44,008 bases of DNA from the NCBI GenBank assembly GCA_016292255.1, contig JAEEZZ010000150.1, positions 1 through 44,008 of the forward strand, in the 5' to 3' direction. Below the pieces are notes generated by a model, which was given only the letters and a program-made list of their open reading frames with translations, had not been told where the DNA came from and did no database searches. Every line of letters begins with the position of its first letter. Positions within the stretch are counted from its first letter, which is position 1. Below are positions 25,261-40,214 of the stretch, piece after piece. A program made the position numbers and the translations under genes. Origin of the DNA: Oscillospiraceae bacterium (GTDB taxonomy: Bacteria > Bacillota > Clostridia > Oscillospirales > Oscillospiraceae).

Positions 25261-26250
25261 TCATTTTGCATTTTGCAATTTGCATTTTGCATTCCTCCTG
25301 AGCCTCCCGTGACGCTCCGACTCTTCGCGGAGCTTCCGGTACCGCTCCCAGCGGGCGGGGTCCAGATCCCCGGCGGCAATGGCCGCCTTGACGGCGCAGC
25401 CGGGCTCCTTTTCGTGGCGGCAGTCCCGGAAGCGGCAGCGGCCCAGGTATTGCTCCACGTCGGAGAAGGTCTCCGACAGGCCCTCGGTGGCCTCTGCCAT
25501 GCCCAGCTCCCGCATCCCCGGGGTGTCGATGATCAGCGCCCCGCCGGGCAGGCGGATCAACTGCCGGTGGGTGGTGGTATGGCGGCCTCTGCCGTCGGCC
25601 TCCCGAATGCCGCTGACGGTCATGACCTCCTCCCCGGCCAGGGCGTTCACCAGGCTGGATTTTCCCACCCCGGAGGAGCCCAGGAACACCAGGGTCTTTC
25701 CCGGCTGTAAATAGGTCGACAGCCCATCCAGGCCCATGCCCGTCCGGGCGCTGACGGCGTGGAGCTCCACCCCGGGAGCCACCTGGGCCGCCCGGCGCAG
25801 ATAGTCCGCCGGGTCTTCGGCCAGGTCCGCCTTGGTCAGCAGGATCACCGGCGTCGCCCCGGACTGCCAGGCCAGGGCCAGATAGCGTTCCAGCCGGGCG
25901 GGGTTGAAATTCTGGTTCATGGATTGCAGCAGGAACACCCAGTCAAAGTTGGCGGCCACGGCCTGATCCCGGGGGATCGGGCCCGGCTCCTTCCGGGCAA
26001 AGAAGCTCCGGCGAGGCAGGGTCGCCAGAATCTGGCTGTCCCCGTTTTCGATATATTGCAGCGCCACGTAATCCCCCACCGTGGGGAACAGCTCTGTCCC
26101 GGCGTAATATTCCTTGGTTTTCAGCCGGGCGAAGGCGTGGCCGTACTGACAGACGAGCTCATAGCGCTCCTTGTGCTGGGCTACGATCCGCGCCGGGATC
26201 CCCGGCCGGCCGCCCATTTCCGGCACGAGGCCGAATTCGTTCAGATTCAA
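25261..26250 (-). CDS. rsgA: Ribosome small-subunit-dependent GTPase A
   Basis: 329 aa. The start is TTG 26250 with GGAGGAG about 7 nt upstream. It has an N-terminal OB-fold (PARIVAQHKERYELVCQ...VGDYVALQY), then a circularly permuted GTPase with motifs in the order G4 (LLTKADL), G1 (FLGSSGVGKSSLVNAL), G2/switch (GRGRHTTTH) and G3 (DTPGMREL). A C-terminal zinc-binding segment follows (CRFRDCRHEKEPGCAV). Known role: late 30S subunit assembly and release of factors. The C-terminal tail NAKCKLQNAK comes from a 7-nt repeat array, longer than expected for the family. It is preceded by a leader of about 300 nt with its own promoter. Confidence 0.94.
   Translation of the reverse strand: MNLNEFGLVPEMGGRPGIPARIVAQHKERYELVCQYGHAFARLKTKEYYAGTELFPTVGDYVALQYIENGDSQILATLPRRSFFARKEPGPIPRDQAVAANFDWVFLLQSMNQNFNPARLERYLALAWQSGATPVILLTKADLAEDPADYLRRAAQVAPGVELHAVSARTGMGLDGLSTYLQPGKTLVFLGSSGVGKSSLVNALAGEEVMTVSGIREADGRGRHTTTHRQLIRLPGGALIIDTPGMRELGMAEATEGLSETFSDVEQYLGRCRFRDCRHEKEPGCAVKAAIAAGDLDPARWERYRKLREESERHGRLRRNAKCKLQNAK
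25263..25290. repeat. 7-nt tandem array at the 3' end of rsgA
   Basis: ATTTTGC, ATTTTGC, AATTTGC, ATTTTGC. It encodes the last residues of RsgA on the minus strand and reaches its stop codon. Confidence 0.8.
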
Positions 26251-30641: not shown

Positions 30642-30691
30642 TGTGCTTTTCCGATTCCCATGTTTGCCCAGAGAACAATTTGGTGTGATTG

Positions 30692-31045
30692 ATGGAAAAG
30701 AATGAGTTATTGGAGCAATCCTACACGTTTTCGATGCATATCGTTTTGACCTGCCGCTGGATGCGGAAGCGGAAGGTTGAATGGTTCTTGTGCGACCAGC
30801 TTATGCGCGCCGGAACTGCCGTCTGTGCAAACCTCTACGAAGCACAGAACGCGCACGGAATCAAGGATTTTACGGCAAAGCTTGAGATTTCCATGAAGGA
30901 GAGCAGCGAGTCTCTCTATTGGATTCGCCTGTTGACGGATCTGGGGGACATAAACAAGCCAACAGCAGACCGCCTTCTCACCGAGCTGACGTCTATTCGC
31001 AATATGTTAGGCGCTGCCATCCGAACCGCAAAGCAGAACAACTGA
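30692..31045 (+). CDS. Four-helix-bundle protein (S23 / 23S rRNA intervening-sequence protein family)
   Basis: 117 aa from ATG 30692; the ribosome site is poor. The sequence (QSYTFSMHIVLTCRWM...LCDQLMRAGTAVCANLYEAQNA...DFTAKLEISMKESSESLYWIRLLTDLGDI...LLTELTSIRNMLGAAIRTAK) fits the S23/IVP four-helix-bundle family, with its GTAVCANLYEA and KESSESLYWIRLL signatures. Members are encoded in intervening sequences of bacterial 23S rRNA genes, and relatives (Avd) assist diversity-generating retroelements; no reverse transcriptase is visible here. The gene is enclosed by a 21-bp inverted repeat and interrupts the dcw cluster, suggesting an inserted element. Confidence 0.85.
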   Translation: MEKNELLEQSYTFSMHIVLTCRWMRKRKVEWFLCDQLMRAGTAVCANLYEAQNAHGIKDFTAKLEISMKESSESLYWIRLLTDLGDINKPTADRLLTELTSIRNMLGAAIRTAKQNN

Positions 31046-31067
31046 CCATCCCGTTTCATTTCAAGTC

Positions 31068-31109
31068 ATTTTGCATCTTGCATTTTGCATCTTGCTTTTT
31101 GCATTTTGC
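31068..31109. repeat. Right arm: 7-nt tandem array after the four-helix-bundle gene
   Basis: Six heptamers: ATTTTGC, ATCTTGC, ATTTTGC, ATCTTGC, TTTTTGC, ATTTTGC. It contains 31080-31100, the 21-bp complement of the left arm, and ends 22 bp before the PBP start. Confidence 0.88.
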
Positions 31110-31131
31110 GTTTCACATGGGGGGTTCCCAA

Positions 31132-33468
31132 ATGTCCAAGAAACCGAGAATTAAGCTCCTCAAGGAGCCTGTGCCGGCCTATGATCGGGAAAAGGCCGGG
31201 CACGGCGTGCTGCGCCGCACCACCTTTATTATGATCTTCTGCGGGATCCTGCTGTTTATTCCGCTGATCTGGCAGCTGTTTCAGCTGATGATCGTCCAGC
31301 ACGACGAATTTGAGAGCGACGCCATCAGCAATCAGACCCGCTCCACCACCGTCTCTGCGGATCGGGGCGTGATCTACGACTGCAATATGAACATCCTCGC
31401 CGCCTCCAAGACCGTGGAGAACGTCTTTATCGACCCCTGGGAGATCCACAACTCCAACGAAAACGTGGATCTCATCGCCAACGGTCTGGCCTCCATCCTG
31501 GACGTGGACGCCGACTTCATCCGGGAGAAGGCCGCCATGCTGGATCGCCGCTATGAGGTCATCGCCCGGAAGCGGGAGCCTGAGGTGGCCGACGCCGTCC
31601 GGAAATTCATCAACGACAACGATCTCACCGGCATCCATCTGGAATCCGACTCCAAGCGCTACTACCCTGCCGGTACCACGGCGGCCCAGGTCATCGGCTT
31701 TACCAACGCCGAGAACCGGGGCGGCGACGGGCTGGAGGCCTACTATGATGACGTGCTCCAGGGCACGGCCGGCGCGGTCATCACCACCCGGGGCAACTAT
31801 GAGACCCAGATGCTCTACTCCTACGAGAAATACTACGAGGCCACCGACGGCAATTCCCTGGTGCTGACCATCGACTCCACGGTGCAGATGTACCTGGAGA
31901 AGAACCTCAAGGCCGCCATTGAGAAATATGACGTGCAAAACGGCGCCTTCGGCATCATCATGGACGTAAACACCGGCGCGATCCTGGCAATGGCCATCGA
32001 GGGCAGCTACGACCCCAACAACTATCTGGAGATCCTGGATCCCGCCGCGCTGAAAAAGCTGGACGAGATCGACGACGAGCTCCGGCAGCACAACACCAGC
32101 TCCACGGCCTATCAGGAGCTGATCCAGGAGTACAACAGCGCCGTGGCGGCCGCCCGGCTCAAGCAGTGGCGTAATCGCTGCGTCTCCGACGGCTACGAGC
32201 CCGGCTCCACCTTCAAGACCATCACCCTGGCCGCTGCCCTGGAGGAACAGGTGGTGAACGAAAACACCGGCTTCTACTGCTCGGGCCAGAAGGATTACGT
32301 AGACCGTGAATCCACCCTCCACTGCTGGAAGAGCGAGGGCCACGGCGCGGAGAGTCTGGCCAAGGCCCTGCAAAACTCCTGCAACATCGCCTTTGCCGAC
32401 ATCGGCATCCTGCTGGGCGGCGACAAGCTCTACGACTACATCGACGCCTTCGGTCTGCTGGAAAAGACCGGCATCGATATGTCCGGCGAAGCCATGGGCG
32501 TCTTCCACACCAAGGCAAAGCTCATGGAAAACGCACAGCTGACCACCGTGGCCTTCGGCCAGTCCGTAAAGCCCACTCCCATCCAGATGGTGCGGGCCAT
32601 TGCCGCAGTCGTCAACGGCGGCTACGTGCTCCAGCCCTACGTGGTCTCCGAGATCCTGGACGAGAACGGCAACGTGGTGGAAAAGCACGGCAAGACCGTC
32701 ATCCGCCAGGCCATCAGCGAGGACACCTCCAAGGAGATGTGCAAGCTGATCGAGTCCGTGGTCACCGACGGCACCGCCGGCAACGCCAAGCTGGCCGGCT
32801 TCCGGGTGGGCGGCAAGACCGGTACCTCCGAAAAGCTGGACGTCTACGACGAGAACGGCCAGCAGACCGACGACCGCATCGTCTCCTTCGTGGGCATCGC
32901 CCCCATGGACAATCCGCAGTACATCTGCCTGGTGGCTCTGGATACCCCCAGCCGCAAGACCGGCATCTACATCTCCGGCGGCGTGATGGCCGCCCCCGTG
33001 GTGCGCGACATCTTCGCCGACACCCTGCTCTATCTGGGCGTACAGCCCGACTACACCGGCGTGGACATGAGCACCGTCAACGTCGCCATGCCCGACGTCC
33101 GCGATCTGACCGAGGACGAGGCCTCCCGGACCCTGGCGGAGCTGAGCCTGAGCTACGTCACCGTGGGCGAGGGCGGCACCGTGACCGGGCAGATCCCCGC
33201 GCCCAACGGGATGCTCCCCGGCAATTCCAAGGTCATCCTCTACATGGGGGAGGACGTGCCCACGGACTACGTGACCGTCCCGGATCTCACGGGAATGCGG
33301 CCCGCCTCCGCCCGCGCCACCATGGAGAACTCCGGCCTGTACCTGCAGACCAAGGGCTCCAGCTGGGCCTATGCCGTGGTGACAGACCAGGATCCCGCTC
33401 CCGGAACGGACGTCCCCCGGGGCACCACAGTCACCGTGGAGCTGACCGACCAGACAGCGCTGGACTAA
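31132..33468 (+). CDS. ftsI: Division/sporulation class B penicillin-binding protein with two PASTA domains (FtsI/PBP2B/SpoVD)
   Basis: 778 aa from ATG 31132; the in-frame extension to 30919 reads through the repeats and the S23 gene and is rejected. Short cytosolic tail, membrane helix FIMIFCGILLFIPLIWQLFQLMI (about 30-52), PBP dimer domain (SADRGVIYDCNMNILAAS...), then transpeptidase with S359-x-x-K (PGSTFKT), SCN (QNSCNIAFADIG) and K562-T-G (GGKTGTSEK). Two PASTA domains occupy about 650-711 and 712-778. Cross-links septal or spore-cortex peptidoglycan with FtsW. An unusual charged insert (DEIDDELRQHNTSS...NSAVAAARLKQW) precedes the active Ser. FtsI versus SpoVD role cannot be decided. Confidence 0.93.
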   Translation: MSKKPRIKLLKEPVPAYDREKAGHGVLRRTTFIMIFCGILLFIPLIWQLFQLMIVQHDEFESDAISNQTRSTTVSADRGVIYDCNMNILAASKTVENVFIDPWEIHNSNENVDLIANGLASILDVDADFIREKAAMLDRRYEVIARKREPEVADAVRKFINDNDLTGIHLESDSKRYYPAGTTAAQVIGFTNAENRGGDGLEAYYDDVLQGTAGAVITTRGNYETQMLYSYEKYYEATDGNSLVLTIDSTVQMYLEKNLKAAIEKYDVQNGAFGIIMDVNTGAILAMAIEGSYDPNNYLEILDPAALKKLDEIDDELRQHNTSSTAYQELIQEYNSAVAAARLKQWRNRCVSDGYEPGSTFKTITLAAALEEQVVNENTGFYCSGQKDYVDRESTLHCWKSEGHGAESLAKALQNSCNIAFADIGILLGGDKLYDYIDAFGLLEKTGIDMSGEAMGVFHTKAKLMENAQLTTVAFGQSVKPTPIQMVRAIAAVVNGGYVLQPYVVSEILDENGNVVEKHGKTVIRQAISEDTSKEMCKLIESVVTDGTAGNAKLAGFRVGGKTGTSEKLDVYDENGQQTDDRIVSFVGIAPMDNPQYICLVALDTPSRKTGIYISGGVMAAPVVRDIFADTLLYLGVQPDYTGVDMSTVNVAMPDVRDLTEDEASRTLAELSLSYVTVGEGGTVTGQIPAPNGMLPGNSKVILYMGEDVPTDYVTVPDLTGMRPASARATMENSGLYLQTKGSSWAYAVVTDQDPAPGTDVPRGTTVTVELTDQTALD

Positions 33469-33472
33469 AACA

Positions 33473-33562
33473 AGTTATGATTGCCGTTGCCGGCAAGTTA
33501 TGATGCTCCTGCGGAGCAGTTATGATTCGTCTTCGACGAAGTTATGATTGCCCTGCAGGCAA
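33473..33562 (+). repeat. Left array: four AGTTATGA words alternating with variable-stem hairpins
   Basis: AGTTATGA at 33473, 33496, 33518 and 33540. The hairpins after each are TTGCCG-ttgc-CGGCAA, TGCTCC-tgc-GGAGCA, TTCGTC-ttc-GACGAA and TTGCC-ctgca-GGCAA. Each stem is different yet perfectly self-complementary. It begins 5 bp after the PBP stop codon. Confidence 0.92.
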
Positions 33563-33581
33563 GTGAGTTTGAAAGTTTTCA

Positions 33582-33610
33582 TTGTTTTTCTGTCAATCGT
33601 GTGGTAGAAT
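33582..33610 (+). promoter_or_regulatory. murE promoter between the two arrays
   Basis: TTGTTT (33582-33587), 17-nt spacer, TAGAAT (33605-33610). Transcription from about 33617 would place the whole right-hand array in a murE leader of about 225 nt. Confidence 0.65.
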
Positions 33611-33645
33611 AAAGGGAAATGCGCGGAAAGCAGTATTTCCATCAC

Positions 33646-33826
33646 TTGCGCAGCGATCATAACTTGCGAAGCAATCATAACTTGCGCAGCAATCATAACT
33701 TGCGCAGCAATCATAACTTGCGCAGCAATCATAACTTGCGCAGCAATCATAACTTGCGAAGCAATCATAACTTGCGAAGCAATCATAACTTGCGAAGCAA
33801 TCATAACTTGCGCAGCAATCATAACT
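33646..33826 (-). repeat. Right array: ten TCATAACT words (reverse of AGTTATGA) at 18-bp period
   Basis: TCATAACT at 33657 and every 18 bp to 33819 (ten copies), separated by TTGC-gca/gaa-GCAA hairpins; the first hairpin is a TTGC/GCGA variant. Loop order from left: gca, gaa, gca, gca, gca, gca, gaa, gaa, gaa, gca. Same unit as the left array but inverted. The 18-bp period keeps frames open, so a repetitive 71-codon frame at 33619-33834 is probably incidental; its ATG is too close to the only AAAGGG. Confidence 0.95.
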
Positions 33827-33842
33827 CACATTAGGTGGTACT

Positions 33843-35282
33843 ATGACACTATCAACCCTGTTAAAAGACGTTCCTATCCTTGAAAATACCGCTGATCTGA
33901 ATACGGAGATCACCGGGGTCAGCTTTGACTCCCGGAATGTGCAGGCGGGATACCTGTTTGTGGCGATTATCGGCTACGCTGCCGACGGACACAGGTTCAT
34001 CCCCATGGCCATGGAGCGGGGCGCGGCCTGCGTGCTCTGCGAGCGGAAGCCGGAGGTCGACATCCCCTACATCCGCGTCCCGGATACCCGGATCGCGCTG
34101 GCTGTGCTGGGAGCGAATTGGTTCGGCCACCCGGCGGAGAAAATGACCATTCTGGGCGTCACCGGCACCAACGGCAAGACCTCTGTGACCTACCTGCTGA
34201 AATCCGTGCTGGAGCAGACCCTGGGCGCGAAGGTGGGTCTGATCGGAACGATCCAGAACATGATCGGCGATCAGGTGATCCCCACGGAGCGCACCACCCC
34301 GGAGAGCTTTGAGCTCCAGGGGCTGTTCGCGCAGATGGCCCAGGCCGGATGCACCCATGTGGTGATGGAGGTCTCCTCCCACGCCCTGTTCCTGCACCGG
34401 GTGGACTGCATCCCCTTTGCGGTGGCGGCCTTTACCAATCTGACCGAGGATCACCTGGATTTCCACAAAACCATGGAGGCCTACCGGCAGGCCAAGGCAC
34501 TGCTCTTCCGCCGGGCCGGCTTCAGCGTCTTCAACATCGACGATGAAATGGTGGCCAAGACCGTCAACGAGGCCGCCTGCTGGAGTCTGACCCTTTCGGC
34601 CAAGGGCGGCAAGGCGGACCTCACCGCAGACGACATTGTGCTGGGCGCGGATCACGTTTCCTTTACCGGCAGCTACAAGGGACGTTCCTGGCCGGTACGC
34701 GTGGGGATCCCCGGCGGCTTCACCGTCTATAACGCCCTCACCGTGCTGGGTATGGCCATCGGCCTGGGCATTCGCCCGGAGGCGGCAGCAGAGGCCCTTG
34801 CCGGCGCCGCAGGGGTCAAGGGACGGCTGGAGGTGGTGCCCACCCCCGGGAAGGACTACACCGTTCTGATCGACTACGCCCACACCCCCGACGCGCTGGA
34901 AAACGTCCTGCGCTCCGTTCGCGGCTTCTGCAAGGGGCGGCTCATTGCCGTCTTCGGCTGCGGCGGCGACCGGGATCCCATCAAGCGGCCCATCATGGGC
35001 AAGATCGGCGTCAAGCTGTCGGATCTTGCCATCATCACCTCTGACAATCCCCGGACCGAAGCGCCGGATAAAATCATTGCCGATATTCTCAAGGGCGTCC
35101 AGGAACTGAGCAAGCCCTATCTGGTGGTGGAAAATCGCCGGGAGGCCATCGCCCGTGCCATGCGAGAGGCCCGCACCGACGACGTGATCGTCCTGTGCGG
35201 CAAGGGCCACGAGACCTACCAGATCCTGGGCACGGAAAAGACGCACCTGGATGAACGGGAAGAGGTTGCGAAGAATTTGTAA
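33843..35282 (+). CDS. murE: UDP-N-acetylmuramoyl-tripeptide synthetase (meso-DAP adding)
   Basis: 479 aa; AGGTGG 5 nt before the ATG. Mur ligase domains in order: N-terminal UDP-binding (GVSFDSRNVQAGYLFVAI), central ATPase with GVTGTNGKTSV (P-loop near residue 107) and EVSSHAL, C-terminal domain with DYAHTPDALENVL and the amino-acid selectivity motif SDNPRTEAP. DNPR indicates meso-diaminopimelate rather than lysine, in line with ddh in this window. Adds the third stem residue to UDP-MurNAc-dipeptide in the cytosol. Separated from the PBP gene by the repeat arrays and likely transcribed from its own promoter. Confidence 0.96.
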   Translation: MTLSTLLKDVPILENTADLNTEITGVSFDSRNVQAGYLFVAIIGYAADGHRFIPMAMERGAACVLCERKPEVDIPYIRVPDTRIALAVLGANWFGHPAEKMTILGVTGTNGKTSVTYLLKSVLEQTLGAKVGLIGTIQNMIGDQVIPTERTTPESFELQGLFAQMAQAGCTHVVMEVSSHALFLHRVDCIPFAVAAFTNLTEDHLDFHKTMEAYRQAKALLFRRAGFSVFNIDDEMVAKTVNEAACWSLTLSAKGGKADLTADDIVLGADHVSFTGSYKGRSWPVRVGIPGGFTVYNALTVLGMAIGLGIRPEAAAEALAGAAGVKGRLEVVPTPGKDYTVLIDYAHTPDALENVLRSVRGFCKGRLIAVFGCGGDRDPIKRPIMGKIGVKLSDLAIITSDNPRTEAPDKIIADILKGVQELSKPYLVVENRREAIARAMREARTDDVIVLCGKGHETYQILGTEKTHLDEREEVAKNL

Positions 35283-36671: not shown

Positions 36672-36697
36672 GGAATAAGTTGAGCGAACCCGTATTT

Positions 36698-36739
36698 CTT
36701 ATCACCTATTACCTGTTACTTATTACCTGTTACTTATTA
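36698..36739. repeat. 7-nt tandem array between murF and mraY
   Basis: CTTATCA, CCTATTA, CCTGTTA, CTTATTA, CCTGTTA, CTTATTA. Alternating CCTGTTA/CTTATTA pairs suggest a recent 14-bp duplication. A further pair AAGGAAT AAGGAAT (36663-36676) spans the murF stop. Confidence 0.85.
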
Positions 36740-36766
36740 CTTCGACAATCATACGGAGGAATCCCC

Positions 36767-40085: not shown

Positions 40086-40155
40086 AAGTTGAAAATGGAA
40101 AGTTGAAAGTTGAAGCGAACAACCAAACTTTCAACTTTCAACTATCAACTTTCAA
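40085..40155. repeat. Two opposing 7-nt arrays forming a long hairpin after murG
   Basis: Left: AAAGTTG, AAAATGG, AAAGTTG, AAAGTTG (40085-40112). Right: CTTTCAA, CTTTCAA, CTATCAA, CTTTCAA (40128-40155). They pair over about 28 nt with a few mismatches around a 15-nt loop. Confidence 0.88.
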
Positions 40156-40214
40156 CTCACAAAAAAAGGCCGCCTGACATAGAATTGAGTAATTCTGTGT
40201 GAGGGGGGCCGTCA

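Follow-up and report, generated by a model that had tools for sequence, protein, structure and literature searches.

The window analysed here, a 44,008-nt stretch of an Oscillospiraceae bacterium contig from an uncultured, gut-type Clostridia genome, carries two opposed arrays of a constant 8-nt word between a gene presumed, from its motifs, to encode a penicillin-binding protein (PBP) like SpoVD and a gene that we take to be murE, a name that comes from an earlier sequence-only reading of this DNA and from motifs. The features of this region, with both genes taken from the list of open reading frames, are as follows.

30919 to 33468, plus strand: PBP-like gene, start codon unsure, with its stop 4 bp before the first word
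33471 to 33564, minus strand: left array of four AGTTATGA words (TCATAACT on the minus strand), with hairpins of differing stems between them and GNA or GNNA loops on the minus strand
33565 to 33639, no strand assigned: core between the arrays, with a possible -10 box TAGAAT (33605 to 33610) and a weak TTGTTT 17 nt upstream (33582 to 33587), both placed by eye
33640 to 33826, plus strand: right array of ten TCATAACT words with an 18-bp period and TTGC-G(A/C)A-GCAA hairpins
33843 to 35282, plus strand: murE-like gene, with its start codon 16 bp past the last word

The sequence-only reading had described the word as recurring four times in one orientation and ten times in the other around the start of murE, and this layout was recovered by direct count, by shuffling and by Tandem Repeats Finder. 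On the plus strand AGTTATGA begins at 33473, 33496, 33518 and 33540 (span 33473-33547) and on the minus strand it occurs ten times (33657-33826), which with one unrelated stray at 1900 gives 15 matches in the window; 100 shuffles of the window gave a mean of 0.42 and a maximum of 2, and chance was dropped as an explanation. Tandem Repeats Finder reported a period 22 array at 33471-33564 and a period 18 array at 33640-33826, the latter with 10.4 copies and 96% matches. The copy number at murE comes from one metagenome assembly; the array class is no artefact, because the same design is present in many other assemblies.

On the TCATAACT strand, a unit consists of the TCATAACT word followed by a short hairpin whose loop is most often GNA or GNNA, and both murE blocks, when read outwards, run from hairpin to TCATAACT. 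The small palindromes that had been noticed between the constant words proved general in the host: among 41 word-to-word intervals of 8-26 nt from the window and host loci L042-L048, 35 are perfect hairpins, 5 have one mismatch and 1 is neither. On the TCATAACT strand, the 35 perfect hairpins comprise 23 with GNA loops, 8 with GNNA loops, 4 with another type and none with TNC, and 34 of them have a C-G closing pair; these counts are confined to the host group, which was picked by word alone, since loci retrieved with a CGNAG pattern favour GNA loops. The loops TGC and TTC reported at murE hold as the complements of GCA and GAA, the loops of the TCATAACT strand. The reported variety of stems is mostly found in the units of the left array, the right block having a nearly constant stem (TTGC/GCAA) and GAA or GCA loops. 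In DNA, loops of the form C(GNA)G or C(GNNA)G give unusually stable hairpins. Extraordinarily stable hairpins of 7-10 nt, in DNA or RNA, are described in the available part of PMC10527192, in which the term GNA does not appear.

The position of the arrays between the upstream stop and murE, a possible promoter between them and two matches resembling terminators within the left array (0.5 on average in shuffles) could all be accommodated if the arrays were a cis-acting RNA or DNA regulator of murE, such as a terminator, a leader structure or a protein sink, selected for expression control. The promoter claimed for this core is weak: a consensus scan found none at its threshold, and what stood was the TAGAAT box, which matches the position of TATAAT-like boxes in L246 and L248, from two congeners, when the spacers are aligned by eye. 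Matches to the murE-like gene were found in 28 of 29 genomes searched, host included, with orthologues in 17 congeners, and the 17 murE spacers were inspected by eye. Two of them (G214 and G203) have arrays, G205 has one inverted pair of words enclosing a promoter-like core, G206 has a comparable core and no arrays, G201, G202, G204 and G207 contain repeats of other kinds, and the remaining nine congeners have just a short spacer. That only 3 of 18 genomes of the genus, counting the host, carry arrays at murE, with a single-word form in one more, speaks against selection for control of this gene, as do the same arrays near unrelated genes and the switch of the GNA-loop strand between the blocks, which is as in a two-stranded DNA design, and we regard a murE regulator as unlikely. 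Neither a special tie of the design to murE nor control of that gene, as the sequence-only reading had suggested, is supported, given its dispersal elsewhere and its absence at murE in most of the congeners read.

The G214 and G203 spacers are alike outside the units and contain two units with stem changes on both arms: a right-array stem reads TCCGC/GCGGA in one of them and TTCGC/GCGAA in the other, and one left-array stem is changed on both arms. The compensating changes predicted for relatives are thus seen between these two murE elements, but not in the 5 of 41 host units that carry one mismatch. Because arrays at murE are patchy among congeners and their units altered, it follows that they come, go and change fast at this site. 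A by-eye comparison established no target-site duplication, the congener spacers being short or diverged. Exact inverted arms of up to 14 bp, and thus complementary ends, are present on both sides of the murE core, an arrangement that might allow the promoter segment to be flipped and murE to undergo phase variation. This reading is very hard to credit: murE is expected to be essential, similar inverted flanks surround the FHB genes described below, and none of the congeners read showed a flipped form.

A search of this and related genomes for the word followed by a palindrome, which the sequence-only reading had proposed, uncovered more arrays in the host and many on Clostridia contigs, so the original observation is real and larger than first reported. 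In the 2.94 Mb host assembly, TCATAACT occurs 86 times, compared with 38 for a control in which the pattern was read backwards, and it clusters on seven host contigs (C6, which contains the window, C52, C71, C82, C85, C118 and C132). A tandem-unit pattern scan of genome contigs returned at least 113 stretches, on which ground the idea of a host-specific repeat was dropped. The titles among 80 matches listed include 77 of Clostridia type, one 'uncultured bacterium' (L148), one Saprospiraceae (L114) and one Pseudoalteromonas (L107); L114 is a real array outside the Clostridia, and L107 looks like chance, its interval being no palindrome. Within the family of the host, the tandem TCATAACT pattern was present in 1 of 200 genomes, the host itself, and the tandem pattern with TCATMACT was present in 7 of 20 genomes of the genus. 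The arrays are widespread yet patchy.

The statement that no known repeat family has this design was upheld within Rfam and the open-licence literature. At gathering score, 18 whole loci yielded only an SRP RNA (L044) and a T-box (L136), both outside the word clusters, and no rRNA; for the murE stretch, searched by E-value, the best Rfam match was Gut-1 at 19.4 bits against a cut-off of 50. Searches on the words, on palindromic repeats and on FHB found nothing on this design in open-licence papers. Within these bounds, the repeat element is widespread and apparently undescribed.

A GuaA-like gene, so named from a motif, is present near arrays in nine loci (L048, L085, L093, L120, L124, L128, L129, L160 and L170); its 3' end is less than 80 bp from a word in seven of the nine and about 480 bp away in L124, the distance in L129 being ambiguous. 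This gene would be a recurrent landing site.

A common architecture was found in 50 elements (type B), which were fetched by a pattern of two exact words and picked by the letters of their link: H1, AGTTATGA, H2, GTTATGA, H3, a near-constant link ending in GGCRATCATATCATAAC, H4, word, H5, word and often CTAAACT. After three elements without a clear left end (L080, L171, L180) and three others left out by the author (L095, L108, L146) were set aside, 44 elements from 42 loci could be aligned (alignment A1). Their five helices are paired in 89.8% of 1213 cells, compared with 70.6% in shuffles and 21.5-43.7% when slid, and two-sided changes number 213 cells, compared with 51.7 in shuffles. Helices 3 and 5 are weaker (paired in 78.9% and 80.3% of cells, respectively), and helix 5 has 24 unpaired cells at each of two adjacent pairs, mostly G.A and A.G. 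The words of type-B elements are conserved in 99.2% of letters, a figure from author-chosen columns that is partly built in, and the stems in 74.6%. The hairpins are conserved as structures, as had been suspected at murE: their stems covary across the 44 related elements. In addition, one arm of H1 can pair over a long range with the link (TATGATYGCC/GGCRATCATA), a pairing that competes with H1 and is found in 98.6% of cells, compared with 14.8-48.6% when slid; 6 of its 10 pairs are invariant, and one pair is C-G in 22 elements and U-A in 22.

Two gene families were considered as partners of these arrays. A RAYT was favoured first, via a RAYT-like gene (P0001; NF047646 at 64.7 bits, below the 80-bit cut-off) between TCATAACT arrays on host contig C132. 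The murE arrays would then be REP/BIME sequences moved by a RAYT, an HuH tyrosine transposase, acting on single-stranded hairpins. Inverted palindromic units are also a feature of BIMEs, and units in opposite orientation occur here too: for 117 clusters of at least two words in the 113 matches listed, the order is '- then +' in 60 and '+ then -' in 6; another 48 keep to a single strand and 3 are mixed. At E <= 0.001, a RAYT-like gene was found in 34 of the 50 array-bearing genomes searched and in none of the other 16. Against this reading, the hairpins have no GTAG or CGTC tag beside them, which by the definition in the accessible part of PMC3733652 stands at the foot of the palindrome, and are accompanied by TCATMACT or related words; tblastn with three host RAYTs found none in the 113 array loci (matches listed); and relatives of P0001 turn up in 60 of the 200 genomes of the family, the host alone among these 60 having the tandem TCATAACT pattern. 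The C132 RAYT gene itself (L042:5500-6500) is directly flanked on both sides by its own GTAG-type hairpins, recognised by eye, and is nested between the TCATAACT arrays. The RAYT was dropped as partner on these own hairpins, the absence from the 113 loci, and the family and 50-genome counts, and we consider a REP/BIME origin improbable. A phage search with the RAYT protein returned one unannotated record.

The clearest partner of the design is instead a gene family that the sequence-only reading could not see. When proteins encoded within 3 kb of arrays were clustered (121 loci, with neighbours of the window copy left out), the commonest were the GuaA-like protein (9 loci) and a four-helix-bundle (FHB) protein (8 loci, including host L045). 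By tblastn, the FHB gene is present in 8 of 113 loci (matches listed), at 20-120 bp from the array in seven and at 2054 bp in the eighth (L090); FHB fragments are found in L085 and L104, and the FHB gene of L128 is cut by the locus end. Two short weak hits inside arrays (L098, L182) were not counted, as the query began in array sequence. In L073, L100, L120 and L157 a type-B element precedes the FHB gene and points the same way, with only a short gap to the start codon. The window and host copies belong to the PF05635/TIGR02436 family, the S23 or 23S-rRNA-IVP four-helix bundle; the L073 protein gave one structure match, to the solved structure 2rld, and a Pfam scan of the window FHB copy found no nuclease.

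A second layout is seen upstream of the FHB gene in L076, L093 and L128, where the adjoining element has its halves reversed and its word blocks run '+ then -', like swapped halves of the usual element. This might point to a circular intermediate.

The linkage between FHB genes and inverted repeats extends beyond the word found at murE. The host has 12 FHB genes, one of them between TCATAACT words (C85), and among the 29 FHB genes of the genus that could be analysed, 22 share at least three 9-mers in inverse between their 300-bp flanks, compared with 15 of 132 control genes; 10 of 39 FHB loci were unscored, with no signature hit, and 4 of the 15 positive controls are themselves FHB or RAYT genes. 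Direct sharing of 9-mers is alike for FHB and control genes (means 3.8 and 3.7). Among the FHB flanks shown, many carry inverted heptamer arrays and others hairpin arrays with other words. At the level of whole genomes, co-occurrence is weak. FHB genes were found in 42 of 50 array-bearing genomes, picked by the author from the 113 matches listed by differing record prefixes, and were missing from 8; FHB genes of TCATMACT type were found in 17 (G268, mislabelled, left out). The 20 genomes of the genus barely differ in this respect, with FHB genes in 6 of the 7 that have arrays and in 9 of the 13 that lack them. G203 and G214 contain many TCATMACT units (10 and 11 pattern hits) and no FHB with a matching word among the 9/10 hits examined, in assemblies that are 83% and 81% complete and with one short FHB hit in G203 left out; G203 has a sister-lineage FHB with heptamer flanks (L462).

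The window contains an FHB (PF05635) gene of its own at 30689-31045 (with 31067-31113), just upstream of the PBP-like gene and flanked by inverted CATTTTG/CATCTTG heptamers; L462 of G203 is an 81%-identical copy of it. Further 7-bp tandem arrays in the window, at 25262-25293, 36693-36742 and 40126-40157 (CATTTTG, TATTACT and AACTTTC), are like FHB flanks elsewhere.

FHB genes of the array-bearing genomes show the same layout with other words, so the relationship between word and protein lineage could be analysed. On a tree of 70 FHBs, seven words need six changes, which is the minimum; FHBs of the host that differ in word fall with same-word FHBs of other hosts, and two heptamer FHBs (L242, L244) fall among hairpin types. 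With the word patterns unchanged, 97 newly fetched FHBs gave 27 that could be labelled, on which five words need five changes (minimum four); 51 of the 97 were unlabelled (many of the 24 shown carry other words) and 19 were of heptamer type. All 167 FHBs together need eight changes for seven words. Among the misfits, L397 is mislabelled and L385 comes from a Saprospiraceae genome. In this second test the labels were made by eye beforehand, the FHBs came largely from array-bearing and genus genomes used in the first, and the tree was a quick one of few columns; proteins under 95 residues and identical proteins were dropped from both trees.

A label-free comparison of upstream regions gave a similar result. 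Between hosts, a common repeated upstream 6-mer is found in 194 of 7562 FHB pairs below 50% identity, rising to 130 of 1634 at 50-60%, 157 of 331 at 60-70%, 165 of 194 at 70-80% and 86 of 87 at 80% or more, and in 12 of 203 pairs within one host; of the 162 genes with at least 200 nt upstream, the 142 in which some 6-mer recurred four times entered the comparison, and 200 of 504 control ORFs have such a 6-mer. It is the FHB protein that the word follows, and not the host. A leader inherited with the gene, or homogenisation within arrays, would also follow the gene tree, a concern that is weakened by 136 FHBs fetched by protein family: for pairs at 70-80% identity, repeated upstream 6-mers are shared in 56.8% of cases and once-only 6-mers in 16.8% (background 9-11%), so the word outlasts the rest of the leader. 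Homogenisation could account for part of the excess of repeated 6-mers.

A Saprospiraceae (Bacteroidota) genome, G256, contains both the TCATAACT hairpin arrays of L114 and the FHB of L385 with TCATCACT-type words; the latter lies on a long branch, separate from those Clostridia FHBs that share its word group.

The fixed order of hairpins upstream of FHB genes in the same orientation (L073, L100, L120 and L157, with FHB fragments in L085 and L104) raises the question of whether the element acts as RNA, namely as a structured leader of the FHB transcript that is bound by the FHB protein, with the gene-less arrays as stray copies. The long-range pairing, with its exchange of C-G for U-A at one pair, fits this proposal. 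Yet some FHB genes of other word groups have a promoter-like match between themselves and the array (in L296 and L357 all 12 consensus letters agree), from which an FHB transcript without the array is expected in those groups; such matches of at least 9 of 12 letters precede only 14 of 56 FHB genes, and of the five in the TCATMACT group three or more share letters with the element itself. By consensus, moreover, TNC loops are found in about half of the hairpins on each strand. A role as an RNA leader therefore appears quite doubtful.

The interpretation that we prefer, at a probability of about 0.58, is that the murE arrays are one gene-less (non-autonomous) copy of a dispersed, FHB-linked selfish repeat element of Clostridia that resembles an intervening sequence (IVS). 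Its unit is a fixed word (TCATMACT) plus a short hairpin, with two opposed blocks placed around a core so that each runs hairpin-then-TCATAACT outwards; in the full form, the FHB gene stands directly behind the element. Words differ from one FHB lineage to the next, so a word probably serves as the address that its protein recognises on folded DNA, or RNA. The FHB protein probably aids the copying or keeping of the element, by analogy with an old proposal for the ORF of rRNA IVSs, and the element would be mobile, with murE presumably a mere landing site. The analysis establishes the design, its dispersal and patchiness, the covarying stems, the FHB linkage and the match of word to protein lineage; binding, mobility and the role of murE as a landing site are inferences from these. 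The weak co-occurrence of arrays and FHB genes and the partly built-in conservation of the word, which count against this reading, are offset by the 6-mer comparison of FHBs fetched by protein family.

A broader and more tentative proposal, which we put forward as possible rather than probable, is that FHB (S23/IVP) proteins define a new selfish repeat class as lineage-specific readers of a code of word plus mini-hairpin on folded DNA, spreading both their own gene and swarms of gene-less arrays. If true, such a reader class would give the orphan FHB family, and IVSs, a function, and an FHB-linked repeat could account for much intergenic repeat DNA in Clostridia metagenome genomes. A word that tracks a protein lineage across hosts also offers a direct and cheap question, namely whether each protein binds its own word.

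Several known systems share features with this element. PF05635 proteins resemble Avd, the accessory protein of diversity-generating retroelements, in the accessible part of PMC10053308. TIRtrons, which the part of PMC3733652 available to us describes as tyrosine transposase genes flanked by long inverted repeats, some of them repeated in the genome, are similar in combining a flanked gene with gene-less copies, and differ in that the gene here encodes an FHB protein, not a transposase. REP/BIME/REPIN sequences with their RAYTs (REPtrons) are likewise dispersed intergenic palindromes in opposite orientations, with a repeat type matched to protein lineage (PMC8266576, as excerpted), whereas the arrays described here have no GTAG/CGTC tag, no RAYT near the 113 loci (matches listed) and a four-helix-bundle protein as partner.

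A parallel in protein family is provided by the IVSs of 23S rRNA. According to the consulted part of PMC4990558, neither they nor the S23/IVP four-helix-bundle proteins have a known role, and the same paper cites the hypothesis that the IVS ORF helps the element to be copied or kept. An IVS is a compact selfish element whose ends are complementary and whose ORF belongs to the same protein family (S23p), and the Coxiella IVS has tandem heptamers ahead of its ORF (PMC4990558, same portion), as inverted heptamers flank many FHB genes here. Unlike an IVS, the window copy lies between the PBP-like gene and murE and not in 23S rRNA, the ends are hairpin or heptamer arrays, and the S23p/FHB ORF is absent from the murE copy while being present in 8 of the 113 loci (matches listed) and in host C85. 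Because it has no 23S rRNA site, no tag and no RAYT, the murE copy falls outside membership of both the IVS and the REP type, while the element resembles both systems in its behaviour.
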